64,000 nucleotides of DNA from Acidimicrobiales bacterium. GTDB lineage: Bacteria > Actinomycetota > Acidimicrobiia > Acidimicrobiales > Palsa-688. The notes beneath the pieces are model-generated. The model was given only the letters and a program-made list of their open reading frames with translations, did no database searches and had not been told where the DNA came from. The stretch lies in the NCBI GenBank assembly GCA_035533095.1, contig DATLUM010000094.1, forward strand, positions 1-64,000, written 5' to 3'. Made by a program: the position numbers and the translations under genes. How positions within the stretch are numbered: the stretch's first letter is position 1; the number at the start of each line of letters is the position of its first letter. Below are positions 24,164-40,663 of this stretch, piece after piece.

Positions 24164-24213
24164 CTTGTCCCGTTAACGCATCTTGACAACCCGCAACTCG
24201 AGAGGTGATAGCC

Positions 24214-24540
24214 GTGGCTGACGGCAACAAGCAGCGCATTCGCATCCGCCTCAAGGCCTACGACCACGAGATCCTCGACCAGTCGACGAAGAAGATCGTC
24301 GAGACCGTGCTGCGCACCCAGGCCAAGGTGCGTGGACCGGTCCCGCTGCCCACCGAGCGCAACCGGTTCACGGTCATCCGCTCACCGCACAAGTACAAGG
24401 ACAGCCGCGAGCACTTCGAGATGCGGGTTCACAAGCGGCTTCTGGACATCGTCGAGCACACGCCCAAGACGGTCGACTCGCTGCAACGGATCGAGCTGCC
24501 CGCCGGCGTGGACATCGAGATCAAGATACAACAGAATTAA
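24214..24540 (+). CDS. rpsJ: 30S ribosomal protein S10
   Basis: S10 (108 residues) is a 30S head protein and also the NusE antitermination factor. It shows [51 protein letters not shown] and the C-terminal GVDIEIKIQ. The GTG at 24214 follows a GAGAGGTG site. rpsJ normally opens the S10 operon ahead of rplC, but here rplC is about 16 kb downstream. The last codons (24519-24540, IKIQQN-stop) recur as IKIQTN-stop at 28933 and 31079, which marks this 3' end as an integration site. The present end is probably element-supplied: it uses ATA, AAT and TAA, unlike the GC-rich gene body. Confidence 0.95.
24519..24540 (+). repeat. att copy 1: 3' end of rpsJ
   Basis: GATCAAGATACA (24519-24530) is identical to copy 2 and differs by one base from copy 3. 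The sequence continues through the rpsJ stop into TTAACGCT, also shared with copy 2. In the rpsJ frame it reads IKIQQN-stop. In another frame it reads DQDTTEL and runs straight into the recombinase. A CGCT-CCC-AGCG inverted repeat follows. Confidence 0.8.
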
Positions 24541-25277
24541 CGCTCCCAGCGTCGGGTAACCGCGCTCAGTGGCTGATCCAGCGTTTCTGCTCCCGCTACA
24601 CGAATCCGGACACCGCCCGTCAATACCGGGCTGAGCTGAGCGCCCTGTTCGCCCATTGCGGAGCATCGCATCCGCGGGCCCTGACCGACGCCATGGTCAA
24701 CCACTGGGTGGCCAAGTCCCGGGCCAACAACACGAGGCGCAACCGCCTCGTCCGGGTGTGCACGTTCCTGCGGCCGGCATGCGGGTTGCGGAGATCATCC
24801 GCCTGACAATCGGTGACCTGCACCTAGGCCCGGAGCCGACCATTAAGTGGATCGGGAAGAGGAAGCGTCCTCGCAAGGTGGCCGTCGGTCCGACCATGGC
24901 CGATCTGCTCTCCGACTACCTGGAGCGCTACTCCGCTGCGGTTGGCCGACCACTGTCCCGTGGTATGCCGGCAGAAGACCGGCGGGGGAGTCGGACTGAT
25001 CTCTTGGGGTCGCCCGTTCAAGACTCCGGCGAGCGTCGCCAAACTGGTGCGTCTGCGCGCCGAGGAAGCGGGGCTCGGCCACATGAGCCCCCACGATCTG
25101 CGCCGGACAGCAGCCGGGATCCTGCACCGGGCGGTCTCCGAGGACGGAGCCCACTACTTCGATCTGCTCGACATACAGAAGGTGCTTGGGCACGCCAACC
25201 CGGCGACGACCATGCGCAGCTACATCGATCCTCTCGATAACGGGGTGATCCGCCGGGCGGCCCAGGTCCTGGACTAA
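24541..25277 (+). pseudogene. Tyrosine recombinase (integrase), frameshifted and internally deleted
   Basis: Three reading frames together carry a phage-type integrase. Frame A (from 24540) has the core-binding domain RFCSRYTNPDTARQYRAELS up to about 24775 and stops at 24805-24807. Frame B (from 24779) has the Arg-I region MRVAEIIRLTIGDL and IKWIGKRKRPRKV. Frame C (to 25277) has the catalytic HDLRRTAAGIL and LGHANPATTMRSYIDP with the nucleophile Tyr. Between the core-binding and catalytic parts roughly a hundred residues seem missing. The frame opens upstream into the rpsJ end without its own start codon. It once catalysed integration at rpsJ. Confidence 0.8.
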
Positions 25278-25289
25278 CTGACGGGGCGG

Positions 25290-26109
25290 CCTCACCGCCC
25301 TGCGGGCGGCCGGCCGCCAGCATCCGGTCGTGGTCACCGTAGATCGCTCCAGATGCGACGGCCCTCGTTGCTGCCGCTCGTGCCCGCTTGCGGATCGCAG
25401 CTTCGTACGAGCGGGCGTAGAGCTTCCCGTACTCGTCGGGGCCGACACCGCCCACGGTGAGGCCCTGCCAGTGTTTGCTCTTCTTGGCGTCGTTGCTCAC
25501 CGGCCTCCCTCTTGCCCGCTTACGCATAGCGTCGAGAAGCGTGAGGCGTTGGTTCAGCTGGTGCCAGACGTCCTGTTCGACCTCGAGCAGCTCGATGGTT
25601 GGTTTGAACCCGGCCCGGTAGCCGAACGTCCCGAAATATCGACCGACGGTGCCGAAGCCATCCGGTGGGACCTTCTGGCCTGCCTTGGCAGCTTCGCCGG
25701 CCATGTAGGCGGCGATCGCAGAAGGTCGCATGCCAGTGGCCACGCCGTCGTCTTTGGCGTAGAAGACGGTGCGCACGTTGACACCCCGCCGGATTCGAAC
25801 CGGGGCGACGATCCATACGACCGCGAGCTTGATCACTACGAGGTGGTTGGAGCCGCTCGTGGTGATCGAATCGCCAGGTAAGACGTTGACTCCCGCTCCG
25901 AGGTGGGCTTGCCATCGGAGGAGCGATTCGGCTTTGGCGTCGAAGAGCGACGCCGGGCCGATGGTAAGCGAGCGACGATCGTGGCGGTACCCGCTGGGAA
26001 GCTGCCCCGAACGCGTCGCGCCCACCTCGGAATATGAGAAGGCCGCACTTGACGCGCCGGTCAAGAGTCGATCGCATTCTTCGTCCGAAGGTCGACGAAG
26101 GTGGAACAT
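25290..26109 (-). pseudogene. Chimeric frame: DUF1990 N-terminus fused to a Rep-like fragment
   Basis: The open frame from ATG 26109 begins as a DUF1990 protein (FSYSEVGATRSGQLPSGYRH, LLRWQAHLGAGVNVLPGD, VVWIVAPVRI). After about residue 108 (near 25788) it changes abruptly to unrelated sequence. That part (GTVGRYFGTFGYRAGFKPTI, ELLEVEQDVWHQLNQRL) resembles the C-terminal region of plasmid replication initiators, with low certainty. The frame stays open to 25018, but the last ~90 codons lie antisense to the integrase and are unlikely to be real. I read it as a deletion junction between two genes. Confidence 0.5.
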
Positions 26110-26146
26110 GTCGAATTGCTAGCACGGAAACCTGTACGTCAGGTCG

Positions 26147-26152
26147 TAACCT
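26147..26152 (+). promoter_or_regulatory. Candidate -10 (TAACCT), leaderless spacing
   Basis: TAACCT is followed by six bases and then the GTG start at 26159. No ribosome site is present. Confidence 0.4.
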
Positions 26153-26158
26153 GGTCTT

Positions 26159-26551
26159 GTGGGAGTCGTCCGCTCCGAGCTGTTGGTCTTCGACGGCGAC
26201 TGCGGATTCTGTACCTTCTCTGCCGAGTGGGTTGCCCGGAGCTGGCCCCCTGGGCCGCGAGCGGTTGCCTGGCAGCATCTGGGAGCCGATGGCCTAGCGG
26301 CGGTGGGGCTGAGCCCGGCCCAGGCGCAGCAAGCGGCCTGGTGGGTCGATGGCATGGGGCATCTGTTCAGAGGGCATCGAGCCGTCGCCAAGAGCTTGAG
26401 GGCCTGCAGAGGGCCGAAGAAAGCCGTCGGCATCATGATTAGCAATCCGCCCCTTTCGTGGGTCGCCGCTGCCGTCTATCCGCTGATCGTCAGATATCGA
26501 TATCGACTTCCAGGGGGAGCACCTGCTTGTCGAGTCACACCCCCTGACTGA
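26159..26551 (+). CDS. DCC-family thiol-disulfide oxidoreductase (DUF393)
   Basis: This 130-residue protein opens with LLVFDGDCGFCTFSAEWV, the DxDCGFC signature that names the DCC family, in a thioredoxin-like fold with a CxxC-type pair. WQHLGADGLAAVGLSPAQAQQAAWWVDG and a C-terminal hydrophobic stretch follow, as in the family. The redox partner is unknown. The GTG at 26159 is preferred because the motif follows within a dozen residues. It is divergent from the DUF1990 frame, a pairing often seen in actinobacteria, and lies inside the integrated element. Confidence 0.82.
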   Translation: MGVVRSELLVFDGDCGFCTFSAEWVARSWPPGPRAVAWQHLGADGLAAVGLSPAQAQQAAWWVDGMGHLFRGHRAVAKSLRACRGPKKAVGIMISNPPLSWVAAAVYPLIVRYRYRLPGGAPACRVTPPD

Positions 26552-26558
26552 CGAACGG

Positions 26559-27119
26559 TTACCAGCGCTGACTAACGGTCGACCGTCTCGCAGAACTACA
26601 AGGACCCACCTCTGGAGGAGTGACCTCGATGTAGGCGACGACGTCCTCGTTCATCGGGAAGATCTTCATGTACAGCTTGCGGCCAAGACCGAACGCGGCA
26701 GCCAACGTGGTTTCAGCGTGAGCCATCTCGTCAGCCGGCAGAATCCGCGCGCTACCGAGCAGAACTGGACCCGTCGGCTTCCCTCGCACGGTGGACGCTG
26801 AGATCAGCACTGTCGGATCGTTCCGGAGGCGCTTGACCTTCCAGCTCTTCGCGCCTGTTTGCACGTACGCCCGGCCCTCCGAGTCCAAGGCCATCCACAC
26901 TGGTGATGGGACTGGGTCGCCGTTACCTCTGAAGGTGACGAGAAGGCCGTACTTGTGTCGTCGCAGCTGGTCGAAGGACCCGGTTGCGGCATCATCTCGG
27001 CGCACGTTGAATGCGGCCGGATGTCGCATCCGGTTGTAGATCCGGTCCATCGCGTATGCCATCCGCTCGCCGGATCCCATCCCGGGCGACCTCGGTTTCG
27101 GGGTAGCGGAGTCTGGCAT
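26559..27119 (-). CDS. PPOX-class F420-dependent oxidoreductase
   Basis: This 186-residue split-barrel flavin/deazaflavin protein shows LRRHKYGLLVTFRGNGDPVPSPVWMALDSEGRAYVQTGAKSWKVKRLRNDP in parts, typical of the F420-binding pyridoxamine-phosphate-oxidase-like family (PPOX class, TIGR03666-like). It would reduce a small organic substrate using F420H2; the substrate is unknown. Family-specific residues for the F420 tail (K-x-K-R-L-R-N) are present. The start ATG 27119 includes a short disordered N-terminus. It ends 8 bp from the convergent DCC gene and lies in the integrated element. Confidence 0.8.
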   Translation of the reverse strand: MPDSATPKPRSPGMGSGERMAYAMDRIYNRMRHPAAFNVRRDDAATGSFDQLRRHKYGLLVTFRGNGDPVPSPVWMALDSEGRAYVQTGAKSWKVKRLRNDPTVLISASTVRGKPTGPVLLGSARILPADEMAHAETTLAAAFGLGRKLYMKIFPMNEDVVAYIEVTPPEVGPCSSARRSTVSQRW

Positions 27120-27156
27120 CAGTGACGGCCTTCGGGTCGATCAGGTCGGTCGGAGA

Positions 27157-27918
27157 TCACAGTGCAGCCCGATCCGCTCCGACTGGAACCGATGGACAAG
27201 TCGTGGTCAGCGGTTGCTGGGTGGTCCAGTCCACTTGGAGGTTCTCCATCAGTAGAGCTGAGTCGAGTGTGCACGAGCCGGCTGGAAAGAGCTGTCGGTC
27301 ATCGAAGACGCTTGAGCACATCTCTGCGACTTGGACGGGTCGGGCAGCCCAGCTGTCACTCGACAGAGCGACGGCATCGAGATGATCGGAGCGTGTCGAT
27401 GGTGAGTAACCGAGACTGCCCAAGCAGAAGAACGTTGTCGCGTCCTGTACCCAGTCGAACAGTCGCCCCCCGAGTTCTTCACTCGAATTGGCTCTGACGT
27501 GGAGTTGAGTCTGTCCATCGCGGCTGTCGACTGAGATGTCGAGGCCGGAGTGTTCCTCAGCGACCGAGAACTGCGCGAGATGATACCGGCCTGGGAAGAG
27601 CCGGCCTCCTGCGATAGATGTGAGTAGAGAGTCCGTGTCCCGTCGTGGGACGTACACGCCTGTCCTGGTCTCATCGTGGTCGTCCCATTCAACTGCGTAG
27701 CGGTGGGCCACGTTTTCGCTCCGGATGCCAAGGATCCTGGGCAGGTAGGCAGGGCGGGTGTTGGCCAATCGGATGAAGCAGACACCCCCGACCGCCCAGC
27801 CGCGTACCAGTTGAGGGCGCAAGGGCGACGGCAGCTGCTTGGACACCAGTTCAGGATCGATGCGGTAGTTGACCAACAGACGTCGTTCGATCGTGCAGTT
27901 GATCGTCTGGCTAGTCAT
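27157..27918 (-). CDS. DUF2071 / acetoacetate-decarboxylase-like fold protein
   Basis: This 253-residue protein begins MTSQTINCTIERRLLVNYRID. It has LPSPLRPQLVRGWAVGGVCFIRL, FPGRYHLAQFSVAEEHSGLD, and ends in a conserved VDWTTQQPLTT. The pattern fits the DUF2071/YqjF group with an acetoacetate-decarboxylase-like beta fold; the function is unknown. The ATG at 27918 is chosen because GAGGAGG lies seven bases upstream and it overlaps the stop of the ArsR gene (ATGA). The regulator-enzyme pair is probably one autoregulated operon. Confidence 0.7.
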   Translation of the reverse strand: MTSQTINCTIERRLLVNYRIDPELVSKQLPSPLRPQLVRGWAVGGVCFIRLANTRPAYLPRILGIRSENVAHRYAVEWDDHDETRTGVYVPRRDTDSLLTSIAGGRLFPGRYHLAQFSVAEEHSGLDISVDSRDGQTQLHVRANSSEELGGRLFDWVQDATTFFCLGSLGYSPSTRSDHLDAVALSSDSWAARPVQVAEMCSSVFDDRQLFPAGSCTLDSALLMENLQVDWTTQQPLTTTCPSVPVGADRAAL

Positions 27919-28256
27919 GCTCGAACCTCCTCGTTCTCGGCTGATTCGGATGTGGCTCGACGCTTGCGTCTGTGACGAAGCACCACCTGTTCTGGGCAGA
28001 CTGTGGAGAGGAACTGGCCCACGCAAACGGCAAGGCGCTCCTCGACCAGGGAGTAGAAGATTCGGTTGGCTTCTCTCCGTTCGTTGACCAGCCCGGCCGA
28101 CTTCAGGACCGTGAGGTGACGGGAGATTGACGGGGCGCTGATGGTGAAGCGGCTCGCAATGTCGCCGGCGCTCAACTCCCCGTCTCGGAGGTCCTGGAGG
28201 ATCTGGCGTCGGGTTGGGTCGGCAAGTGCTCGAAAGACGCCGGTGTCATCAGCCAT
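27915..28256 (-). CDS. ArsR/SmtB-type winged-helix repressor (SdpR-like)
   Basis: This 113-residue regulator has FRALADPTRRQILQDLRDGELSAGDIASRF and the recognition helix SAPSISRHLTVLKSAGLV, then the beta-wing RREANRIFYSLVEERL. It lacks the classical metal-site Cys motif (CVC) of SmtB, so it more likely acts as an SdpR-like autorepressor. The ATG at 28256 has TAAATT six bases upstream, a leaderless layout, overlapped by an inverted repeat that is a probable operator. It controls itself and the DUF2071 gene. Confidence 0.85.
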   Translation of the reverse strand: MADDTGVFRALADPTRRQILQDLRDGELSAGDIASRFTISAPSISRHLTVLKSAGLVNERREANRIFYSLVEERLAVCVGQFLSTVCPEQVVLRHRRKRRATSESAENEEVRA

Positions 28257-28262
28257 AAACGC

Positions 28263-28281
28263 AATTTAGCTAATGTGCTAA
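28263..28281 (-). promoter_or_regulatory. Promoter -10 with overlapping operator of the ArsR-DUF2071 operon
   Basis: On the minus strand TAAATT (28263-28268) is six bases before the ATG at 28256. TTAGC (28266-28270) and GCTAA (28277-28281) form a perfect inverted repeat with a 6-nt centre that overlaps this -10. The arrangement fits autorepression by the ArsR protein. Confidence 0.5.
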
Positions 28282-28445
28282 TAAGAAAACCAGACAAGTC
28301 TCTGATTTCTTTGGGCTGATCGGCGGCACGCCCGGTAGTTCCGCCGCCTTCGGCGGCGCTTCGCACGGCCGCCTGGAGGCGGCCGCTTGACTCGGGACGA
28401 GTTTGAACAGCGTCGATGGCTCCGGAGGCCGTCACATGGCGTTCG

Positions 28446-28451
28446 TAGCCT
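28446..28451 (+). promoter_or_regulatory. Candidate -10 (TAGCCT) of hicAB, leaderless spacing
   Basis: TAGCCT is followed by six bases and then the GTG start of hicA. There is no ribosome site in between. Two GC hairpins with no T-tract (around 28338-28385) lie upstream. Confidence 0.4.
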
Positions 28452-28457
28452 CAGTTC

Positions 28458-28661
28458 GTGAAGGTACGAGAGGTGATCCAGATCCTGGAACGGGGCGGTT
28501 GGCGACTGGTCCGCCAGACCGGCTCACATCGCCAGTTCCATCACCCCGATCGTTTGGGGACCGTCACGGTCGCAGGGAAGCTCAGTGACGAGGTGCGTCG
28601 GGGTACGCTGAACTCGATCTGGCGGCAAGCCGGTCTGTCGGAAGGGAAGCGCCGTGGCTGA
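28458..28661 (+). CDS. hicA: HicA-type mRNA interferase toxin
   Basis: This 67-residue protein has the double-stranded-RNA-binding-like HicA fold: VREVIQILERGGWRLVRQTGSHRQFHHP with the catalytic His in the GSHRQF motif, then VTVAGKLSDEVRRGTLNSIWRQAGL. HicA cleaves mRNA and is neutralised by HicB. It overlaps hicB by 8 bp, in the usual toxin-first order. It is the last cargo module before the right end of element 1 and may have stabilised the element. Confidence 0.9.
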   Translation: MKVREVIQILERGGWRLVRQTGSHRQFHHPDRLGTVTVAGKLSDEVRRGTLNSIWRQAGLSEGKRRG

Positions 28662-28869
28662 ATATGTCGTGGTCATCGAGCATGAGGACGGCGCCTGGGG
28701 TGCCTACGTGCCGGACCTCCCTGGCTGCGTCGCTGTTGGGAAGAGCCGTGATGAGGTGGAGCGTCTGATCGCCGATGCGATCCCGTTGCACATCGAGTCC
28801 ATGCGGGAGCAGGGCGAACCGGTGCCCGCTCCGACGGCCGTTGCCTCTACCAAGGTCCAGGTCGCATGA
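28654..28869 (+). CDS. hicB: HicB-type antitoxin
   Basis: This 71-residue antitoxin has the partial RNase H-like HicB fold: YVVVIEHEDGAWGAYVPDLPGCVAVGKSRDEVERLIADAIPLHIESMREQG. It starts at GTG 28654 within the hicA end. The short length means there is little or no C-terminal DNA-binding domain, so autoregulation may be weak or use another factor. The stop lies 30 bp before the conserved right-arm sequence of the element. Confidence 0.9.
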   Translation: MAEYVVVIEHEDGAWGAYVPDLPGCVAVGKSRDEVERLIADAIPLHIESMREQGEPVPAPTAVASTKVQVA

Positions 28870-28899
28870 GCGCCGGCCATGGGGTCGAGGACGAAGCTC

Positions 28900-28954
28900 G
28901 TGCAACTACGGTTGTATATCCCCTTTTCAGGGGATCAAGATACAGACCAATTAA
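28900..28954 (+). repeat. att copy 2: element arm, hairpin and rpsJ 3'-end core
   Basis: The arm GTGCAACTACGGTTGTA (28900-28916) is identical to 31049-31065. The hairpin ATCCCC-TTTTCA-GGGGAT (28918-28935) follows; copy 3 keeps the same stem with one fewer base pair. The core GATCAAGATACAGACCAATT reads IKIQTN-stop in the rpsJ frame. A palindrome CGCTACATGTAGCG (28955-28968) comes next, where copy 1 also has an inverted repeat. This is both the right end of element 1 and the left end of element 2. Confidence 0.8.
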
Positions 28955-29220
28955 CGCTACATGTAGCGGGTGACCGCGGTGAGTGGTTGACTCTCTGGGA
29001 GCTGCCCGCCTGGTTCGCCAGCCGCTACACCAACCCGAAGACGTCCTACCAGTACCGGGCGGGGTTGACGGCGCTGTTCGGGCACGTGGGGTTCTTCGCC
29101 TCAAGCGACGATTTCGCCGTTGGCCGCCTTGAGCCGGAAACGACTTGCCCGCCCTATCCTTCGAACTTCTCAGCCATCTGCAACTCCTTCCGATTGCGGA
29201 AGAGAGTGCAACGATTGTAG
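28900..29220 (+). pseudogene. Truncated tyrosine recombinase N-terminus reading through the att core
   Basis: The frame from GTG 28900 (also open from ATG 28879) reads VQLRLYIPFSGDQDTDQLTL across the att core and then WFASRYTNPKTSYQYRAGLT, matching the element 1 recombinase. After GHVGF (about 29095) the similarity ends, and the stop at 29218-29220 closes a short frame without catalytic residues. An SD-like GAGG precedes GTG 28900 and is conserved before copy 3. The remnant cannot be catalytic. Confidence 0.7.
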
Positions 29221-29238
29221 ATCAGCCGGCGGACAGGC

Positions 29239-29943
29239 TCAGAAGAGGGGCGACCAGCTGCTCGTCCGGAGCAGCTTGCTCTCCCACTGGTCCCGAAGAG
29301 CTAGGGCCTCGTGCATATACGTACCCGGGGCCCGCTGTTCCGGCCGGGCCTCCCTGCTCAACAATTTCGTGAGCGCCGCCGGTCTGAGAATCTTCTGCCA
29401 CAGCATCGCCTCGCGGCGCTGATGGGTGCCATGCGCCGGCTGGAAGCACGCCTGAATGTCGAGCAGCTGCTGCCCGGGGGACGTCTTTTCCATCGGCGCG
29501 TAGTAGATGTCGTACCAGCCCTGGATGTAGACGTCCAGCGGTGCATAGGGCCATCCCGTGTCCTCCATGAAGAGACTCGGTTCGTGCAGCCTCCCGTCCA
29601 CTGGCACGGACCCCAAGTCGACTTCTTGCAGCGGCGACCAGTGGACGGGGACGAGCACCTTCCCGACCACGTCGTGGCGGAGGTTGTCGACCTCCAGCAT
29701 CCACGACTTGAGGTCGCCCTTCTGCACGCGCTGGATCAGGTCCTCCCAGGCCCGGCCATCTTCGACCGCGGTGATCGTCACCACGTTGTAGGACACGCCG
29801 CTTCCGAGGGCATGATTCGTGTACCACAGCAACCGGGCGTAATCGCTCTTGGCCATCGTCGGCATCCAGTAATCACGGTAGGCGGCTTCGAATTCGCCCT
29901 CTTTGGCGCCTTGCACCCTGTGAACCTCGTGCAAAAAGAGCAT
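29239..29943 (-). CDS. Conserved protein of unknown function, paralog A (NIPSNAP/Dabb-like?)
   Basis: This 234-residue protein begins MLFLHEVHRVQGAKEGEFEA and has YWMPTMAKSDYARLLWYTNH, VSYNVVTITAVEDGRAWEDL, HDVVGKVLVPVHWSPLQEVD and the C-terminal LRDQWESKLLRTSSWSPLF. It is about two-thirds identical by eye to the adjacent paralog. Two repeated alpha-beta halves (HEVHRV/ACFQPAHGTHQR...MLWQKI) suggest a NIPSNAP-like or dimeric alpha-beta-barrel protein, but this is a guess. The ATG at 29943 follows GAGAGGAG. It is cargo of element 2, co-oriented with its paralog. Confidence 0.65.
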   Translation of the reverse strand: MLFLHEVHRVQGAKEGEFEAAYRDYWMPTMAKSDYARLLWYTNHALGSGVSYNVVTITAVEDGRAWEDLIQRVQKGDLKSWMLEVDNLRHDVVGKVLVPVHWSPLQEVDLGSVPVDGRLHEPSLFMEDTGWPYAPLDVYIQGWYDIYYAPMEKTSPGQQLLDIQACFQPAHGTHQRREAMLWQKILRPAALTKLLSREARPEQRAPGTYMHEALALRDQWESKLLRTSSWSPLF

Positions 29944-29960
29944 CGTCAATCTCCTCTCGA

Positions 29961-30665
29961 TCAGTACAGCGGCGACCAGGACGAAGTCCGCAGGATCCTG
30001 CTCTCCCACTGATCGCGCACCGCCAGGGCGTCGTGCATCCACGTCCCGGGTTCCCGGCTCTTCGGTGAAGCTTCCCGGGCGAGGAGACGCTCCAGGCGAT
30101 CGAGGTCGTGGATCTTCTGCATCAGCACGACCTCGCCGCGAACGTGGGTTCCGAACGCCGGCTGCAGGGCGATCTCGATGGAGAGAAACGGTACGGACCG
30201 CGCGAAGCCGAGGTTCTTGGAGTAGATCGAACCCGACATCTCGATGTACTCCTGCAGCTTGCCCGCGTACGGCCACATGGTGTCTTCCATGTACAGAGTC
30301 AGGTCGTGGCGGCGCCCGTCACTGGGGATGGCATCGAGATCGAATTCCTGCACGGGCGACCACTCCAGCGGGACCAGGACCTTGCCGACCACGTCGTGGC
30401 GGAACGTGTCGACCTCTCGCATCCACGACTGGAGATCGCCCTTCTGCACCCGGCGGGCGAGGTCCTCCCAGGCCTGACCATCCTTGATGGCGGTCACCGT
30501 TACGACGTTGTAGGACACGCCACTTCCGAGGGCATGGTTGGTGTACCACAGCAACCGGGCGTAGTCGCTCTTGGCCATCGTTGGCATCCAGTAATCCCGG
30601 TACGCCGCTTCAAACTCCTCCTCCTTGCGTCCCACGACCTTGTGCACCTCGTGAAGGAAAAGCAT
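29961..30665 (-). CDS. Conserved protein of unknown function, paralog B (NIPSNAP/Dabb-like?)
   Basis: This 234-residue paralog lies 17 bp upstream of paralog A in the same operon. It begins MLFLHEVHKVVGRKEEEFEA and shares YWMPTMAKSDYARLLWYTNH and the WMHDALAVRDQWESRILRTSSWSPLY end. The central part (YAGKLQEYIEMSGSIYSKNL) diverges most from paralog A, so the two may bind different ligands or form a heteromer. The ATG at 30665 has GGAGGG five bases upstream. I do not recognise a named family with confidence. Confidence 0.65.
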   Translation of the reverse strand: MLFLHEVHKVVGRKEEEFEAAYRDYWMPTMAKSDYARLLWYTNHALGSGVSYNVVTVTAIKDGQAWEDLARRVQKGDLQSWMREVDTFRHDVVGKVLVPLEWSPVQEFDLDAIPSDGRRHDLTLYMEDTMWPYAGKLQEYIEMSGSIYSKNLGFARSVPFLSIEIALQPAFGTHVRGEVVLMQKIHDLDRLERLLAREASPKSREPGTWMHDALAVRDQWESRILRTSSWSPLY

Positions 30666-31216
30666 CTCGACCCTCCGATCCGGCAACTCCCCCGCAACTT
30701 TCGGTGAGGATAGCGGGCTCACTTAACGGGGGTACTGCCCTCGTCGTGGTGCCCCTGGTCGAGATCGTCGATGAGCCCACCGCTGTCTGCTTCAGATCAT
30801 CTCGAGCTGCCTAGCTCAGATAGGCTGCCCCGGCCTTGGCGAGACTCAGGGACACCGCGGCTCGCGACTGGCCCTGCGGTGGGTCGCCATCCCTTGGTCT
30901 CGAGTGCTCGAATCTCTTGTCGAGATCCCGCAACTTCGCAGCGTTCTGGCGCTCGATCCTTGCGATCTCACGCGTGTCTTGGAGATAGCGACTCTACGTT
31001 CTCGGTCCCCTCTCGTCGCCACGGCGAACGAGGTTGCGGACGAGGTGCGTGCAACTACGGTTGTAAATCCCTTCCAGGGATCAAGATCCAGACCAACTGA
31101 CTCCTTGGGCTGCCGCTGCCGCGCCCTCGTAGATCACAAAGAGCCGTAAGCCTCTGGTAGTTGGGCCGACCGCTCGGACACAGTGCGGTCAGGGCCCTAG
31201 CGAGAGGTTGAACGCC
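30666..31216. other. Mostly gene-free stretch containing the right end of element 2
   Basis: This stretch of about 550 bp has no supported gene. It contains att copy 3 (31049-31100) and then about 115 bp before the WS/DGAT gene. A frame at 30904-31149 reads plausible helical residues but runs through the att site and is not supported. No recombinase remnant is visible here. Confidence 0.5.
31049..31100 (+). repeat. att copy 3: element arm, hairpin and displaced original rpsJ end
   Basis: The 17-nt arm (31049-31065) equals that of copy 2. The hairpin is ATCCC-TTCCA-GGGAT (31067-31081). GATCAAGATCCAGACCAACT then TGA reads IKIQTN-stop in the rpsJ frame with GC-rich host-like codons (ATC, AAC, TGA). 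It is therefore the likeliest original 3' end of rpsJ, pushed 6.5 kb downstream by the insertions. Confidence 0.75.
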
Positions 31217-32830
31217 ATGCGTTTGTCAGCCCTGGAAGCGGCTTTCCTCTATATGGAACGCCCGACCACCCCCATGCACGTGGGGAGCATTGCGATCTTC
31301 GACGGGCAACCGTGGCGGGACAGCCGTGGCGAACTGGACCTGGCCCGTCTGCGCCGGTACGCGCGGGACCGCCTGACCGGCATACCGAGGCTCCGCCAAC
31401 GGCCGGTATGGCCGGCTGGCCGGGCGGGCAGGCCGAGGTGGGTGGACGACCCCGACTTCCACATCTCCCGCCATGTCCGGTCAATCTGCCTGGCGGCTCC
31501 GGGCACTGAGGAGCAGCTGCTCTCGGCCGCCGAGGACATGCTCATGCCGCTCCTCGACCGCCGCTACCCGTTGTGGGAGCTGTGGTTCGTCGAAGGGCTG
31601 GAGAACGGCCGGGTCGCTGTGGTCGAGAAGATTCACCACGCCCTTGTGGACGGCATTGGCGGCGTGGACCTCGCGGTGATGCTGATGGACTCCGAGCCGT
31701 CCCCCGCGAGACCTGCGAACGACGGCGCCGTCGTGGCCGCCCGCGTTCCGAGTCGCATCGGACTCCTGTCCGCCACCGCAGCAGAGGCCCTGCGAGAGTC
31801 ACCCGAGCTCGCGTTGCGCACCGTCGGCAGCCTGACGCATCCGCTGAGAGCGGCACGATCCGCCCGGAGCATGGTCAGTGCCTTCTCAGCCGTGTCCCGC
31901 CCTCTCGGCGGCGGGGACATCCGAGCCCCGCGCGTATCCATAAACGGACGGGTGGGCGACGAACGTTCCTACCAGGTCGTGCGGCGGCCGCTGGGAGGGA
32001 CCAAAGAACTGGCCCACGCCCTGGGCGGAACCGTCACCGACGTGGTCTTGTCCGCCGTCGCCGCCGGCCTCGGATCGCTTCTGGCTGCCCGTGGGGAAGG
32101 TGCCGACAAGATGAGGGTTCTCGTGCCGATATCGCAGCGGGGAGACGACGAGCACGACCTCCTCGGCAACAAGGTCACCGGCATGGTCGTGCCTCTCCCA
32201 GTGGCACCGATGGAGCCGCTCGAGCGCTTCCGGACGACCCACGATTCGGTTCGCTGGACCAGAAGTGCGGGTGAGGGAGAGCTCACCAGCACTCTTCTGC
32301 AGTTCTGCGAACACGTCCCCGAGCCGTTCATCGCGGGAATCAGCCAGCTCGTTCACCACCAACCCATAGTCAATCTTGTGGTGACGAATGTCCCTGGGCC
32401 CAGCAGCCCGCTCTATCTGATGGGCAGCCAGATGCTAGAAGCGTTTCCAATCGTCCCGCTCGCGGGAAACCTCACGCTGAGTATCGGGATCCTCTCCTAC
32501 CTCGATCAGCTGACGATTGGCCTGTGGACAGACCGTCGCCGCTTCCCAGATCTGCATGTGCTCGCCCAAGGGATAAGGCAGGGCTTCGACGACCTCGAGG
32601 CCGCGCGCCCGCCAAAGGAGCCGTCAAGCCATGAACCAACCGAACCAGCAACCGAGCCCGACCATGAACGGATCAGACGCGGTCCTGTGGGCCATAGAAG
32701 CGGACCCAAACCTGCGATCGACGGTGACGGTGGTGGTGCTGCTCGACCGGCCACCACTCTTCGACGACCTGCGGCAGCGGGTAAGGGAATGCACCGAGTC
32801 CTTCCCCCGCCTGCGCCAACGGGTCGCTGA
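31217..32830 (+). CDS. Wax ester synthase/diacylglycerol acyltransferase (WS/DGAT) 1
   Basis: This bifunctional acyltransferase joins acyl-CoA to fatty alcohols or diacylglycerol. It starts MRLSALEAAFLYMERPTTPMHVG and has the catalytic HHALVDG at 140-146 and the C-terminal NVPGPSSPLYLMGSQ typical of the family. The ATG at 31217 is chosen because GAGAGG lies nine bases upstream. The family length ends near position 32620, yet no stop occurs until 32830. The last ~65 residues are Arg/Pro/Gly-rich and overlap the next gene in another frame, so the natural stop has probably been lost. Confidence 0.9.
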   Translation: MRLSALEAAFLYMERPTTPMHVGSIAIFDGQPWRDSRGELDLARLRRYARDRLTGIPRLRQRPVWPAGRAGRPRWVDDPDFHISRHVRSICLAAPGTEEQLLSAAEDMLMPLLDRRYPLWELWFVEGLENGRVAVVEKIHHALVDGIGGVDLAVMLMDSEPSPARPANDGAVVAARVPSRIGLLSATAAEALRESPELALRTVGSLTHPLRAARSARSMVSAFSAVSRPLGGGDIRAPRVSINGRVGDERSYQVVRRPLGGTKELAHALGGTVTDVVLSAVAAGLGSLLAARGEGADKMRVLVPISQRGDDEHDLLGNKVTGMVVPLPVAPMEPLERFRTTHDSVRWTRSAGEGELTSTLLQFCEHVPEPFIAGISQLVHHQPIVNLVVTNVPGPSSPLYLMGSQMLEAFPIVPLAGNLTLSIGILSYLDQLTIGLWTDRRRFPDLHVLAQGIRQGFDDLEAARPPKEPSSHEPTEPATEPDHERIRRGPVGHRSGPKPAIDGDGGGAARPATTLRRPAAAGKGMHRVLPPPAPTGR

Positions 32831-34007
32831 ACCGAGCCTCGGCTTCGGCCTGCCGCGTTGGGTGGACGCCACTGATTTCGACCTGGACGCGCACGTCCAC
32901 CTGGTCAACGGCGGCGGGACGGACACCAGAGGCGTGCTCGCGCTCGCCGCGCAGAGCGCCCGCAATGCGATCGAGCGGACGGCGCCGCTCTGGCAGATCA
33001 TGGTCGTCGACGAGATGGAAGGCGGCACGGCCGCGGTGATCCTGAAGTTTCATCACTCCCTGACCGACGGCGTGGGTGGGATGGAGCTCATGCTGTCCCT
33101 TCTCGACTGGTCACGCGACCCCGGCGGCCACATCCGGTCCGAGCCGCCGCCCGTGGCCCCGGCGAGAGGCTCGCTCCTCGGCCAGCTCCTCGGGCGGATG
33201 TCAGCAGGGACTCGCGCTGTTAGCGGACTGCCCGCGGCGGCTCTGCGATCGGCCGCGCGCCCACTGGATTCTCTGGCGACCACGTGGGCAACCGGCGAAT
33301 CGCTGGTGAAGCTGCTCACGCCGGGTACGAAACGTCTCTCGCCCGTCTTCAAGGCCCACAGCGACAGGTGGCTGTTCGACACCTATGAGCTGCCCATGGC
33401 CGAGCTGCGGCGGGCGGCCGCGGCGGCAGGAGGGACCGTAAACGACGTCTTCATGGCTTCGGTCGCCGGAGGTCTCTACCGCTACCACAGCAAGCTGGGG
33501 CACGAGATTACGTACCTCCGCGTCAACCTCCCCGTCAGCTTCCGCAAGTCGGGAGACCCGGTGGGCGGCAACCGCTTCACGCCTGTCAGGTTCGTCGTGC
33601 CCGTCGACGAACCGGACCCCCGCGAGAGGGTTCGGCAGCTCGGGACCCTCTGCCGGCAGTGGCGCGCAGAACCCGCCCTGCCGATGACCGAGGCGATCGC
33701 CGACGTGTTGAGCCGGCTGCCCGGCCCGGCGACGACCGCCCTGCTCGGATCGATGATGTACGGCGTGGACTTCGTCGCGACCAACGTGCCGGGAATAGAC
33801 CAGCGCTGCTACATCGCCGGCGCCGAGGTCCTTCGCCAGTTCGCGTTCGCCCCGTTGGCGGGAGCCGCCGTCAACTTCTCGCTCGTATCGCACGCTGGCA
33901 CCGCCTGCATCGGGGTCAACATGGACGAAGCATCCGTGCCAGACCCGGATCTCCTCATGGCCTGCCTTCGAGACGGCTTCGACGAGGTGACCGCGCAAAC
34001 CGAATAA
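32631..34007 (+). CDS. Wax ester synthase/diacylglycerol acyltransferase (WS/DGAT) 2
   Basis: This 458-residue second acyltransferase has SDAVLWAIEADPNLRST at the N-terminus, the active-site HHSLTDGVGG at 141-150, VNDVFMASVAGGLYRYH and FVATNVPGIDQRCYIAG near the end. Tandem WS/DGAT genes are common in lipid-storing actinobacteria. An ATG at 32664 is an alternative start. It overlaps the run-on end of WS/DGAT 1 by 200 bp and precedes a KAS III-like gene, pointing to a shared lipid pathway. Confidence 0.88.
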   Translation: MNQPNQQPSPTMNGSDAVLWAIEADPNLRSTVTVVVLLDRPPLFDDLRQRVRECTESFPRLRQRVAEPSLGFGLPRWVDATDFDLDAHVHLVNGGGTDTRGVLALAAQSARNAIERTAPLWQIMVVDEMEGGTAAVILKFHHSLTDGVGGMELMLSLLDWSRDPGGHIRSEPPPVAPARGSLLGQLLGRMSAGTRAVSGLPAAALRSAARPLDSLATTWATGESLVKLLTPGTKRLSPVFKAHSDRWLFDTYELPMAELRRAAAAAGGTVNDVFMASVAGGLYRYHSKLGHEITYLRVNLPVSFRKSGDPVGGNRFTPVRFVVPVDEPDPRERVRQLGTLCRQWRAEPALPMTEAIADVLSRLPGPATTALLGSMMYGVDFVATNVPGIDQRCYIAGAEVLRQFAFAPLAGAAVNFSLVSHAGTACIGVNMDEASVPDPDLLMACLRDGFDEVTAQTE

Positions 34008-34049
34008 GAGCCGTTCGCCTCTCTCGCTTGCCCGGGAGACGCGCTCATC

Positions 34050-35171
34050 ATGGCCTTGATGTATCCGGCGTCCCCCACATGGCTGTTGACGGAGCGAAGC
34101 CCCGGTGATGCGTCCGCCCCCTACGTGGCAGACATCACCTCGGCGGGTCGCTCATTGCCGGTGCGGCACCTGTCATCCGAGGATTTGATTGCCTCCACCC
34201 GACACCACACGGGAATCGACCTGGAGCGACTGACCGGCATCCGGGAGCGGCGGGTCGTGAGCCCCGACGACGACTCGTTGACCTTGGCCGTCGCCGCGGC
34301 AGCCGATTGCCTGGAGCGCGGCGGTGTGGAGGCCCCCGAGCTGGACGCTTTGGTCAGCTGCAGCATCACCAAGTACCGCGACGGTACAACCCAGTGGCTC
34401 GAACCGGCGATGAGTTCCGCCGTCGCCCATCGAATCGGAGCCACGAGGGCCGTCACGTTCGACATCGCCAATGCCTGTGCGGGGATGCTGACCGGGGTGT
34501 TCGTCCTGAACAACTGGATCCGCCGTGGCGCGATCCGGAGAGGCCTGGTGGTGAGCGGGGAGTCCATCTCGGGCCTCGGGCGCAATGCCGCTCACCACGT
34601 CCGCAACATCATGAGCAAGGAGCTCGCGTCGCTGACGCTGGGCGACGCAGGAGCCGCGGTGGTCGTCGAGCGCAGCCGGGATGGCTCCCCGGGCATCAGC
34701 GTCGCCGGTTTCACCACCGTCGCCGAGCACTCCCGGCTGTGCCTCGCGTACCCAGCCGTCCATGAGCCCGGTGCACGGATGTTCACCCGCTCTCAAGCCC
34801 TGCAGAGAGCCGCAATCAAGGACACCCCGGTCCTGCTGCAGGAAGCCCTCGACGTCGCCGGGATTGACATATCGCAGGTGGACCACGTGATCCCGCACCA
34901 GACATCGGCGCGGGCGATCCGGAAGGGGATGGCCCACGTCAGCGAAGTCCTGGGCGCCGGACCGCGCAACGACGCCGTCGTGACCGTCGACCACTACGGG
35001 AACACAGCGTCGACCACCCACACCGTCGCGCTGATCGACGAGCTGTCGGGAGGGCGCATTGCACCGGGGGACCAAGTGGCGTTCGTCGCTATCGCGTCGG
35101 GTCTGGTGATCGGCGTGGTGCTGTTCCGCGCGAGCGAAGGACTGGTGAGGAGCCATGGCGACACGGATTGA
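34050..35171 (+). CDS. 3-oxoacyl-ACP synthase III (KAS III)-like thiolase-fold enzyme
   Basis: This 373-residue condensing enzyme has the triad visible: Cys143 in FDIANACAGML, His283 in VIPHQTS and Asn318 in YGNTAS. It resembles KAS III/OleA-type enzymes that condense acyl-CoA with a malonyl or second acyl unit. A later start (about 34110) is possible, since the first ~35 residues are weakly conserved. Its end overlaps the next gene, a degenerate homologue, by 17 bp, so they may form a heterodimer. Confidence 0.85.
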   Translation: MALMYPASPTWLLTERSPGDASAPYVADITSAGRSLPVRHLSSEDLIASTRHHTGIDLERLTGIRERRVVSPDDDSLTLAVAAAADCLERGGVEAPELDALVSCSITKYRDGTTQWLEPAMSSAVAHRIGATRAVTFDIANACAGMLTGVFVLNNWIRRGAIRRGLVVSGESISGLGRNAAHHVRNIMSKELASLTLGDAGAAVVVERSRDGSPGISVAGFTTVAEHSRLCLAYPAVHEPGARMFTRSQALQRAAIKDTPVLLQEALDVAGIDISQVDHVIPHQTSARAIRKGMAHVSEVLGAGPRNDAVVTVDHYGNTASTTHTVALIDELSGGRIAPGDQVAFVAIASGLVIGVVLFRASEGLVRSHGDTD

Positions 35172-36027
35172 CGGGCTCAGCCTTGTGACAGGAGGCTGGA
35201 GGTCGCGCCACAGCGCGCTGAGGCTCTCGGTCGACGCGTGTCGCGCTGCTCTCGGTCGGTGCGAACTGACGCCACAGGACGTCGGGCTTCTCATAAACGC
35301 CGGCCTCTACCGGGACGGCAATCTCGGAGAACCCGCTCTCGCCCCACTGATCCAAGACGACATCGGGGCGAACCCCGAGGACCCGCACCCGGGCACTGCG
35401 GGCACCTTCTCGTTCGACGTCGCCAACGGTGCGTGCGGCCTCCTGAACGCCCTCGAGATCGCGGACGGGTTCTTGAGGAGCAGGACGGTTCAGACGGTTC
35501 TCCTGGTGGCGAGCGACGCGTCTCCCTCACGCCGCTTGGCGCCAGAGTTCCCGTACCTACCGGGGGGCGCTGCCGCCGTCTGCCAGTGGACGGCGGACGA
35601 AGTGGGGATCGGCCCGTTCAAGTGGCACAACGCTTTCGACGAGGGCAGCACCTTCCGGGCAACCGTCGGCTTCGAGGGAGGCCGCAACGTCTTGCACATC
35701 GTGGAGGAAGCGGACTTCGCGGAGCGGGCGGCGGAAGCCGCCGTGGCTGCGGCTGTCGAGCTGCTCGAAGACAACCACCTTGCCCCCGAGGACATCGATC
35801 TCATCGTGGCAAGCCCGGCGCTGCCCTCCTTCGCCAAGAGGGTCGCTTCGGAGTTGGCGAAGCCAGAGGAGGCCGTAGTGACAGACCCCGGCCCCTGGCA
35901 CACCGTCGGGTTGTTCGCAGCTCTCGCCCGCGTCCAGCGGGCCGGTCGGTTGCGCAGCGGGACCAACGCCCTGCTGTTGTGCGCGGCCGCAGGTGTCAAT
36001 GCCGGCGCGGCCTTGTACCGCGCGTGA
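35155..36027 (+). CDS. KAS III-like protein lacking the His/Asn catalytic pair
   Basis: This 290-residue thiolase-fold homologue is shorter than active KAS III. The nucleophile position is kept (Cys94 in VANGACGLLN). The usual PHQ histidine region reads ASPALPSFAKR and the GNT asparagine region reads DPGPWHTVG, so two of three catalytic residues are absent. It likely serves as a structural or regulatory partner of the preceding active enzyme, with which it is translationally coupled. It could alternatively have another acyl-transfer role. Confidence 0.75.
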   Translation: MATRIDGLSLVTGGWRSRHSALRLSVDACRAALGRCELTPQDVGLLINAGLYRDGNLGEPALAPLIQDDIGANPEDPHPGTAGTFSFDVANGACGLLNALEIADGFLRSRTVQTVLLVASDASPSRRLAPEFPYLPGGAAAVCQWTADEVGIGPFKWHNAFDEGSTFRATVGFEGGRNVLHIVEEADFAERAAEAAVAAAVELLEDNHLAPEDIDLIVASPALPSFAKRVASELAKPEEAVVTDPGPWHTVGLFAALARVQRAGRLRSGTNALLLCAAAGVNAGAALYRA

Positions 36028-36040
36028 AAGGAGAATCTCC

Positions 36041-37228
36041 ATGCTCACGAGGACCAAAGGTTTGATCGGGCTAGGGGTAGTCCTTGCCGTAGTCGCAGTA
36101 GGGCTACGGTTCGTGGGCGGTCCTGTTCTGGTCAGGTATCCCCTCAACATCAACCAGACGCTGCACTACCACGGGACCGCCACGGTCTACGTGAATCCCG
36201 CAACCGGGCTACCGCTCGCGCAGCCGCTGCGCGTTCCACTCACAATCGACCGCCAGGTCAAGGTCGTCAGCGGCACCTTCTCGCACGCCGTGATCAGCGA
36301 GAAGACCACAGCGACTTTCGCCGGCAACTCCAGCACGCAGACCTACCAGTACTACATGAACCGGCGGAACATGCGGCTCGTGGACGGACCGCAGTCGTAT
36401 GCGTTCGGTGATCCGGCCCAGTCCATGGCAACCGGTGGGAGCTACCGGATCAACTTCCCGACCGGCACGACAGCAGGCAAGACCTACGAGGCCTGGGCTC
36501 CTGAGACCGGCACGACGATCCAGGTGAAGGCGGCAGGCGGGGCTCAGCGCGAGCCAGTCTCGGGTGACCGGCTTCTCACCTTCTCGACGAACCTCGACCA
36601 CCCCGTGGCTCCGTACTACCTGGCGTACCTGAAGAGCACAGGAATGCCGGCCTCGATCCCGGCCGCGACCGTGGCCGCGGAACTCCAGGCGTCAGGCGTG
36701 AGCGTCCAGCAGGTTCTCCAAGCTGTCGCTCCGCACCTGTCGGCATCTCAGATGGCGACTTTGCAGGCCGCCTTCACCAAGTCGATCCCTCTCTCGTACT
36801 CGTACTTCCAGCACGGATATGTATCCGTTCAGCCATCGACCGGCGCGGTCATCAAGGGGGGTAGCAGCAGCGAAGGCGTGGCCGCGACCCCCGACCTGAG
36901 CTCGCTCGCTCCTGCCGAAGCCGTGCTGGCACCCTATGCCTCGCTACCGCAGGTCCAAGCCTTGGCCAAGGCGGCCGCAGCCATGGGCCGACCGCAGGTC
37001 GTGCTCCAGATGTCCTACAGCGAGGACGCGGCCTCCATCCGGGCTGCCGATCGCATCGCTGACCATCAAGCTGCGCTGATGTCACTGATTGAGTGGCAGC
37101 TTCCCGCCTTGGTCGGAGCGCTGGCGCTGGCGGTACTCATCCTCGCGGCCGCGTGGCGGCCGCGGCCCCGCACGACGCCCGCCGAGGCGACGGTCGAGGC
37201 GAAGACCCAGACAAGGAAGGCGGCATGA
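36041..37228 (+). CDS. PorA-family (DUF3068) envelope protein
   Basis: This 395-residue protein has an N-terminal signal/anchor (about 5-28) and a large extracytoplasmic beta-rich part with QTLHYHGTATVYVNP and SYSYFQHGYVSVQPSTGAVIKG. A C-terminal transmembrane helix (about 350-372) precedes a short basic tail. This double-anchored layout is typical of the actinobacterial DUF3068 family, annotated as porin PorA-like; actual pore function is not proven. The ATG at 36041 has AAAGGAG upstream and replaces a longer frame that overlaps the previous gene. Its stop overlaps the acyl-CoA synthetase start (ATGA). Confidence 0.8.
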   Translation: MLTRTKGLIGLGVVLAVVAVGLRFVGGPVLVRYPLNINQTLHYHGTATVYVNPATGLPLAQPLRVPLTIDRQVKVVSGTFSHAVISEKTTATFAGNSSTQTYQYYMNRRNMRLVDGPQSYAFGDPAQSMATGGSYRINFPTGTTAGKTYEAWAPETGTTIQVKAAGGAQREPVSGDRLLTFSTNLDHPVAPYYLAYLKSTGMPASIPAATVAAELQASGVSVQQVLQAVAPHLSASQMATLQAAFTKSIPLSYSYFQHGYVSVQPSTGAVIKGGSSSEGVAATPDLSSLAPAEAVLAPYASLPQVQALAKAAAAMGRPQVVLQMSYSEDAASIRAADRIADHQAALMSLIEWQLPALVGALALAVLILAAAWRPRPRTTPAEATVEAKTQTRKAA

Positions 37229-39087
37229 CCATGCAAACCATCGAAGCGCCCGCTGGCGGCGCGGACCGCGCCGGTGGGACGAGCCGAAAGGCGCCAACCA
37301 TCGTCTCAGCGCTAGTGGCCAACGCCACGCTGAGACCCGACCGTCCGGCGATGCGCTACCGCGACGCCGGCGGGTCGTGGAGCACCATCACCTGGAAGGA
37401 GTACGAGACCACGGTCAGCCAAGTGGCGGCCGGCCTCGCGGCACTCGGTCTCGAGCCGGGCGCCCGGGTCGCGATCCTCGCGTCGAACTGCCCCGAGTGG
37501 CACTTCGCGGACCTGGGAATCCTCGCCAACCGTTGTGTCACGGTGCCGATCTATCCGACTAGCTCCCCAGCGCAGATCAGCTACATACTCCGTCATTCGG
37601 GGGCGTCGATCTGCTTCGTCGACACGCACGACCAAGTGGGGAAGGTGCTCCTCGTACGGGACGAAGTCCCCAGCCTGAGATACCTGGTTCTCACCGACCA
37701 CGCCCGCCGCGAGTCCGACACGTTCGTTACGAGCTTCTCCGAGCTGACGGCCATCGGTGCCGACCACTTGGGGGAGAATCATTCCGAGGTGACCGGACGG
37801 ATGCAGGGCGTCGTGCCTGAGGACCTCGCCACGATCGTCTACACGAGCGGGACCACCGGGCCGCCCAAGGGGGCCATGATCACCCACGAGAACATCATGT
37901 GGACGCTCCGCCAGGTCACCCCGGTATACGGCCTGACCGAAGGCGAGCGCTTCATCTCGTTCCTTCCCCTCAGCCACATCGCGGAGCGCATGATGAGCGA
38001 CTTCACCCCGATCGCGGTGGTCGGAGAGACGTGGTTCGCGCGCAGCCTCGCCACGCTCGCCGAGGACCTTCCCTCCTGCAGGCCGACGGTGTTCCTCGCG
38101 GTTCCGAGGGTGTGGCAGAAGCTGCGCTCCGCTATCGAGGAGCAAGTCAGCAAGCAGCCGCCGCCGGTCAGGACCGTGTTCTCCGCCTACCTCGCTCTGG
38201 GCCGGCGAGTCGTGAAGGCCCGCCAGCGGGGTGATCGACTTCCGGGCGCAGTGATGGCCGCCTACCGGGCACTGGATGGAGTTGTGGGAGCACAGATTCG
38301 CCGAACCGTGGGCCTCGATCACGCCCGGATCGTCGTCAGTGCTGCGGCGCCGATACATTCCGACCTGATCGAGTGGTTCCACGCCGTCGGGTTGCCGATG
38401 CTTCAGATCTACGGCCAGACGGAGAGCTGCGGTCCGACCACCGCCAACCGGATCGACCACAACCGCATCGGCACCGTCGGTTCGGCCCTGCCGGGCATGA
38501 CAGTGAGAGTCGGAGCCGACGGCGAGGTCCTTCTCAAGGGTGGCAACGTTTGCCTGGGCTACCTGGACGACCCCAAGGCGACGGCGGAACTCATAGACGA
38601 GGACGGTTGGATGCACTCCGGAGACGTCGGCGAGTTCGACGACGACGGGGATCTGCGGATCACGGGCCGTAAGAAGGACCTCATCATCACGGCTTCGGGC
38701 AAGAACGTCGCACCGCAGGAGATCGAGAGCGATCTCTGCAACGACGCTCTCATCTCAGAGGCCGTCGTGGTCGGGGAGGGCAGGAAGTACCTGACGGCCC
38801 TCGTCACCTTGGACGGCGAGGAGCTCTCTCGTTGGGCTCAGGGTCGCAACAAGCTCGACGACCTGGAGGCGCTGACCGAGGACCCGGATCTGATCGGCCA
38901 CGTCCAGCAGGTCGTGGACAGTGTCAACGCTCGCCGCTCGCAGGCAGAGTCGGTGCGGAAGTTCCGGATACTGCCCCGGGACCTCACCGCGGCGTCGGGA
39001 GAACTGACGCCGACCATGAAGGTCAAGCGGTTCGTCGTCTACTCGCGCTACGCGGGGCTCATCGACGGGATGTACGGAGCCGGCTGA
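37225..39087 (+). CDS. Long-chain acyl-CoA synthetase (AMP-forming, FadD15-like)
   Basis: This 620-residue adenylate-forming ligase activates fatty acids to acyl-CoA. The P-loop YTSGTTGPPKG is at 206-216, followed by LPLSHIAERM, QIYGQTESCGPTT, GWMHSGDVGEFDDDGDLRITGRKKD in parts, and a C-terminal Lys region (LTPTMKVKR). The ATG overlaps the PorA stop; a second ATG lies six bases later. It would supply acyl-CoA to the WS/DGAT and KAS III enzymes in the same operon. Confidence 0.93.
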   Translation: MTMQTIEAPAGGADRAGGTSRKAPTIVSALVANATLRPDRPAMRYRDAGGSWSTITWKEYETTVSQVAAGLAALGLEPGARVAILASNCPEWHFADLGILANRCVTVPIYPTSSPAQISYILRHSGASICFVDTHDQVGKVLLVRDEVPSLRYLVLTDHARRESDTFVTSFSELTAIGADHLGENHSEVTGRMQGVVPEDLATIVYTSGTTGPPKGAMITHENIMWTLRQVTPVYGLTEGERFISFLPLSHIAERMMSDFTPIAVVGETWFARSLATLAEDLPSCRPTVFLAVPRVWQKLRSAIEEQVSKQPPPVRTVFSAYLALGRRVVKARQRGDRLPGAVMAAYRALDGVVGAQIRRTVGLDHARIVVSAAAPIHSDLIEWFHAVGLPMLQIYGQTESCGPTTANRIDHNRIGTVGSALPGMTVRVGADGEVLLKGGNVCLGYLDDPKATAELIDEDGWMHSGDVGEFDDDGDLRITGRKKDLIITASGKNVAPQEIESDLCNDALISEAVVVGEGRKYLTALVTLDGEELSRWAQGRNKLDDLEALTEDPDLIGHVQQVVDSVNARRSQAESVRKFRILPRDLTAASGELTPTMKVKRFVVYSRYAGLIDGMYGAG

Positions 39088-39096
39088 CCCCGGTGG

Positions 39097-40386: not shown

Positions 40387-40663
40387 GCCGCAAGTCTGGC
40401 CGATCCGCTGGCTACTCGCGGGTTGGTTCCCTGCTGGCGCAGCGTGCCGGGCGAGTGGCTATACTGACCAGCCGTCCGCAGAACCGATGTCCGCGGGTGT
40501 CCGCAGGGCCTTCCTTGACGGATCGTCCTCCCGGAGACCCCGCGGCGAAAACTAACGAGCGCTCCGCTCGGTTTTGACCGGGCGGAGCGTCCGCGTGTGA
40601 GGCGGCCGCCCTTCTTCGGGAGCGACGGTCCCCTCCGCCACGACCCACAGGAAAGAGCCAGCT
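40387..40663 (+). promoter_or_regulatory. Promoter and leader of the rplC ribosomal operon
   Basis: This 277-bp spacer holds no gene. TATACT at 40460-40465 is a good -10 candidate and would give a leader of about 190 nt. TTGACG at 40515 has no partner -10 at proper distance. The leader contains a long hairpin (40560-40589). A separate promoter is needed because rpsJ, the usual first gene, is 16 kb away. Confidence 0.5.
40560..40589 (+). promoter_or_regulatory. Leader hairpin upstream of rplC
   Basis: CGCTCCGCTCGGT (40560-40572) pairs with ACCGGGCGGAGCG (40577-40589) over 13 positions with one T-G wobble and a TTTG loop. It lies about 75 nt before the rplC start. Position and stability suggest an mRNA leader element such as an attenuator or ribosomal-protein binding site; no T-run follows it. 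Confidence 0.5.

Follow-up and report, generated by a model that had tools for sequence, protein, structure and literature searches.

Comparison of integrated elements with their in silico circles points to an unusual arrangement of the integrase gene (int), whose start codon and ribosome site probably lie at the element's other end; integration would cut int off from them, and the circle would rebuild the gene. In the mechanism that we propose, a tyrosine integrase would recombine at an ATCAAG-containing core within conserved genes, with the crossover presumably taking place at the core itself. In the circle, attP would fall within the 5′ part of int: the right end of the element would contribute the ribosome site, start codon, and first residues, and the left end the remainder of the gene. 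Upon integration, int would lose its start and be fused to the targeted gene, relative to which it would be in the −1 frame. It could then not be translated from its own start, which would be restored by excision or, in some cases, by a second element in tandem. Within the target gene, int would be exposed to host transcription, here that of the S10 region. Synthesis of the integrase would presumably cease upon integration, with a bias toward stable integration, and the enzyme may be fully expressed only from the circle, as proposed in a preliminary description of this DNA.

The window, i.e., the whole 64,000-nucleotide stretch of DNA that was analyzed, carries two decayed copies of a small Acidimicrobiales integrative element in tandem at the 3′ end of rpsJ (S10; 24205 to 24540; PF00338, E 1e-36), one of 4,414 bp (24520 to 28933) and the other of 2,146 bp (28934 to 31079). 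The ends and junctions of the elements, the reading frames, the starts, and the Shine-Dalgarno (SD) motifs can be read directly from the DNA; the features given below are on the plus strand unless stated otherwise. Three copies of the core ATCAAGATMCAR, at 24520, 28934, and 31080, form direct repeats that mark the element ends. The first is the attL core of element 1 (ATCAAGATACAA; 24520 to 24531), and the end of rpsJ from about 24520 is element-borne core, reading IKIQQN*. The second is found at the junction of elements 1 and 2 (28934 to 28945), and the third is the attR core followed by the displaced 3′ end of rpsJ, reading IKIQTN* (31080 to 31100). The right arm of element 1 (28899 to 28933) consists of CGTGCAACTACGG and a hairpin (ATCCCC-TTTTCA-GGGGAT), that of element 2 spans 31048 to 31079, and the two arms have CGTGCAACTACGGTTGTAWATCCC and the hairpin in common. 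Two tandem paralogous genes without a Pfam match, 722 bp apart and with 73 to 78% DNA identity, are present on the minus strand at 29239 to 30722.

Both integrase genes of the window are remnants. Int1 (24519 to 25277), a tyrosine recombinase remnant without a start codon, has suffered an internal deletion and two frameshifts, near 24773 and 24965. As had been described, it reads DQDTTELTL in the same register as Int2 and is attached to rpsJ without a start, in a fusion that is out of frame. No ATG, GTG, or TTG occurs in its frame at the rpsJ junction over 99 codons upstream and 25 codons downstream of the core. Int2 (28933 to 29094) retains only the first 54 or so residues of the integrase, followed by unrelated sequence. 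Both copies are decayed, and the view of the window elements as working switches found no support. The final gene of element 1 encodes a HicB-like antitoxin (28654 to 28869; PF15919, E 1e-13). Antitoxin-like genes are the last before the arm at 28464 to 28869 (HicB) and in loci L051, L056, and L057, where they end in ALKRFLDVA or EEYRAKPA, and some arm starts overlap the ends of such genes.

The preliminary description placed the start of the integrase at GTG 28900 (28900 to 28902), in a frame that crosses arm, hairpin, and core (DQDTDQLTL) before entering the N terminus of the integrase. This frame is indeed open, and it actually spans ATG 28879 (28879 to 28881), which opens it, to 29220. An SD-like GAGG is present in both arms, 9 nt before GTG 28900 (28887 to 28890) and 3 nt from GTG 31049, but the second arm yields no integrase frame and makes only a 5-codon peptide because TAA follows at 31064 to 31066. 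The proposal that GTG 28900 is the start was not supported: in both window arms, the CGT-GCA register is shifted by one base relative to their integrases, and the next arm contains the TAA. As a conserved start, GTG 28900 is ruled out, other arms carrying stops or a different register at this position. It probably belongs instead to the conserved CGTGCA DNA motif and is not the ancestral start, since the SD-preceded starts of other arms sit in the CGT-GCA register, not in GTG-CAA, and since the arm adjoining 28934 is off register. The offset of the latter matches an extra T in CCCCTTTTC, where the arm of relative G594 has CCCCTTTC. GTG 28900 is thus probably in frame with Int2 by accident. The likeliest ancestral start would be ATG 28866 (28866 to 28868; frame 0, −33), which is in the CGT-GCA register, has AAGG upstream, and overlaps the hicB stop codon as ATGA.

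Relatives of the integrase belong mainly to the same order, being found in 20 of 397 genomes at a loose cut-off and, at the family level, in 7 of 32 genomes; a phylum-wide draw at E 1e-30 matched only the genome of the window itself. Close matches were confined to metagenome-assembled genomes (MAGs) of the Acidimicrobiales, their own order. The viral contigs searched contained no relatives, and phage and plasmid records gave only distant recombinases with less than 60% identity. All six relatives analyzed matched PF00589, and the R, HDLRR, and Y columns of tyrosine recombinases were invariant; the nearest solved structures by sequence were XerA/XerD-like. Five genes are targeted in the Acidimicrobiales relatives: the bS22 gene at its 5′ end and, at their 3′ ends, rpsJ, a sigma-H-like gene, rplS, and uvrB. 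We take all of these but rpsJ to be such genes from their translated ends and general knowledge of those proteins. At every target the ATCAAG of the core is read as Ile-Lys codons, and int consequently lies in the −1 frame of the target at the junctions. Both element ends were located for the insertions in rpsJ, the sigma-H-like gene, and the bS22 gene. Every sequence comes from a MAG contig, and in G350 the two element ends are on different contigs.

For each element, a circle was built in silico by joining its own right arm to its own int. It had been predicted that the attP of an intact relative would reconstruct a full integrase, and three relatives bore this out. The G371 circle (bS22 target) reads GGAGGcgccATG...int, an undamaged integrase of about 372 aa, in one frame across GGAGGCGCC-ATG CGG TCC ... 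CGT GCA GGT ATG GGA CAG TTT CGT GTT CCG TAT CAA GAA GTA AGC. That of G350 (sigma-H-like target) reads AAGGAacagatATG...int, an undamaged integrase of 351 aa, with the junction AAGGAACAGAT-ATG GGT CTT TAT CAA GCG .... In both cases the arm provides an SD and an ATG. The G349 circle (rpsJ target) has one uninterrupted frame from GTG ACT ACC ... CGT GCA, with a poor SD. At the sequence level, the idea that the arm of the circle supplies the ribosome site and start survives in these three relatives in a corrected form, not by way of GTG 28900; in the circle of window element 1, the integrase is rebuilt only via the nonconserved register. An in-frame arm start was also present in the G285 circle (AAGGAGGcaccgATG...int; junction AAGGAGGCACCG-ATG ACA GAT CCG CGT GCA ...), whose integrase is truncated later, and SD-preceded arm starts were in frame in L067 element 1, G594 element 3, and G538 C42a, whose integrases are broken further on. 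The integrase was not rebuilt in the circles of G381A, the integrase of which is undamaged, of G594 elements 1 and 2, and of window element 2. Most arrays seen were decayed; in the L059 array, the arm of the neighboring element can restore a start (GTG CCA AGC ... GAT CAA GAT ACA GCA GAA, in frame).

We also searched the integrated state for the opposite arrangement, an integrase with a ribosome site of its own and a start downstream of the core. In none of 12 integrated junctions was an SD-preceded start present in the interval from the in-frame stop upstream to the conserved domain. GTG codons occur shortly after the core in G349 and G371, making a shorter integrated-state product conceivable, and leaky or truncated translation from these codons is possible in those two relatives. 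G350 and G285 have a GTG within the target gene itself, some 460 nt upstream. Coding sequence in the integrase frame extends almost to the core, with a conserved V-A-G-D-x-D-E-W motif. Near the core, synonymous changes among four relatives numbered 21 in the integrase frame versus 8 and 13 in the other two, samples that are small, and smaller sets of relatives were not decisive.

The integrase might instead be made while integrated, through coupling to the target gene by reinitiation after the host stop, −1 frameshifting, or a nonstandard start, the arm being a binding site only. In favor of coupling, the int frame is the open −1 frame of the target at the examined junctions of five target genes, and the GTG codons near the core in G349 and G371 would also fit. 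However, the −1 phase already follows from the reading of ATCAAG as Ile-Lys, the end of rpsJ has no visible slippery heptamer, and L065 and L053 have an upstream stop, neither of them showing a canonical start ahead of the conserved domain. Coupling would moreover leave the in-frame SD-preceded starts in arms at three targets unexplained, and we regard it as unlikely. Universal −1 frameshifting from the host gene was rejected as the main reading: no slippery site was seen, the phase results from Ile-Lys, and G381A and G538 C42a are in another register.

Alternatively, the right arms could be DNA-binding sites composed of CGTGCA and a hairpin, with open frames that arose accidentally in high-GC, dying elements. 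This would agree with the decay of the window copies, the varying arm register among array members, and the conservation of CGTGCA as DNA; furthermore, the motif is not always coding, as the starts of the G350 and G371 C44 arms come after it. Chance and decay do not readily account, however, for the distribution of starts by register. A start preceded by an SD of at least 5 nt was found in the CGT-GCA register in 11 of 15 right arms, against 0 of 15 in each other register, and in the integrase frame in 6 of 12 circles, against 1 of 24 off-frame checks, two counts that are not independent because the arms are partly related. Nor would chance predict that two undamaged integrases are rebuilt with an SD and an ATG at unrelated targets, and this explanation appears quite improbable. 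The arms of G371, of G350 and G285, and of the rpsJ elements are widely different in sequence. In nine of the 15 arms the register leads into the DQ frame, which most of these integrases use, and the lengths (28, 31, 34, and 37) differ by multiples of 3; it is therefore very doubtful that the arm start belongs to an independent leader peptide that terminates at the core stop codon, with int expressed by other means, even though the arms of G381 (6741) and G594 (10383) do read into IKIQQN*.

Beside the core, some arms of L051, L056, and L057 have an 8-nt unit (CCAGGGAT) in one to three copies, and this shifts the register in which the integrase is entered. Locus L146 (G371 C44) has a second right arm, of the sigma-H type and with an ATG in register; no integrase is found within 14 kb, and this arm is therefore regarded as a remnant.

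The proposed supply of a start codon from the opposite end resembles several known systems in part, the closest being the archaeal suicidal integrases and phage Mx8. The suicidal, SSV-type integrases of SSV1, pTN3, and pT26-2, said to be exclusive to archaea, have the att site in their own gene, and integration cuts an N-terminal fragment away from the catalytic portion (PMC8371274). In G371, G350, G285, G349, and others, the recombination site likewise lies within the integrase gene, which would be split on integration, judging from in silico joining. The present elements differ in having bacterial hosts and protein genes rather than tRNA genes as targets, and in that only the ribosome site, the start, and a few N-terminal residues would be cut off. 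Their integrases match PF00589/PF02899; given the lack of a PF16795 (Phage_integr_3) match at E 0.01 and the bacterial host, they are not members of the SSV family. Myxococcus phages Mx8 and Mx9 rebuild the integrase gene on integration, attP being inside the integrase coding sequence (stated for Mx8), and the altered 3′ end of the Mx8 gene yields a product that stays active with altered specificity (PMC6070905). The present elements share with Mx8 a bacterial host and, as predicted from the in silico circles, an attP within the integrase coding sequence, but here it is the 5′ end and the start that would be lost; no replacement of the 3′ end was found, the core being located before the SAM-like domain. 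In ICEKp1, the excised junction carries a control signal from the 3′ end to int, and the integrated gene is read from a host promoter (PMC13023037). What is moved there is a promoter, acting on transcription, whereas the present elements would move a start codon and ribosome site, acting on translation. In mycobacteriophage BPs, the attachment site is in a regulatory coding gene whose product depends on the integrated or free state (PMC4557955); the protein affected is the phage repressor in BPs and would be the integrase in the present elements. By analogy, the present arrangement might work like a translational version of the SSV-type, Mx8, and ICEKp1 switches.

We lean toward the view that these are bacterial self-splitting integrases acting at translation, startless and not produced while the element resides in strongly transcribed genes such as those of the S10 operon and restored by the circle or a tandem neighbor, the arm giving the host gene a start in the case of the bS22 5′ end. 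If true, a bacterial family that splits int at the start codon would extend the known self-splitting integrases, would have a simple bias toward staying integrated, and would account for highly expressed ribosomal genes serving as targets. Integrated int genes of this kind, lacking a start, resemble pseudogenes, which calls for caution in annotation.

At the G371 attR (L114, reverse strand, 4854 to 4990), the arm supplies the bS22 gene with a new N terminus (GTG CAG GTA TGG GAC AGT TTC GTG TTC CGT ATC AAG AAG), and attL keeps only MGSLIKK*. In the window, the S10 operon is broken between rpsJ and rplC, which is first met at 40664; the gap (24541 to 40663) holds the elements as well as wax-ester synthase, acyl-CoA ligase, and porin-like genes. 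The distance from rpsJ to the rplC that follows it is no more than about 350 nt in relatives G609 and G580.
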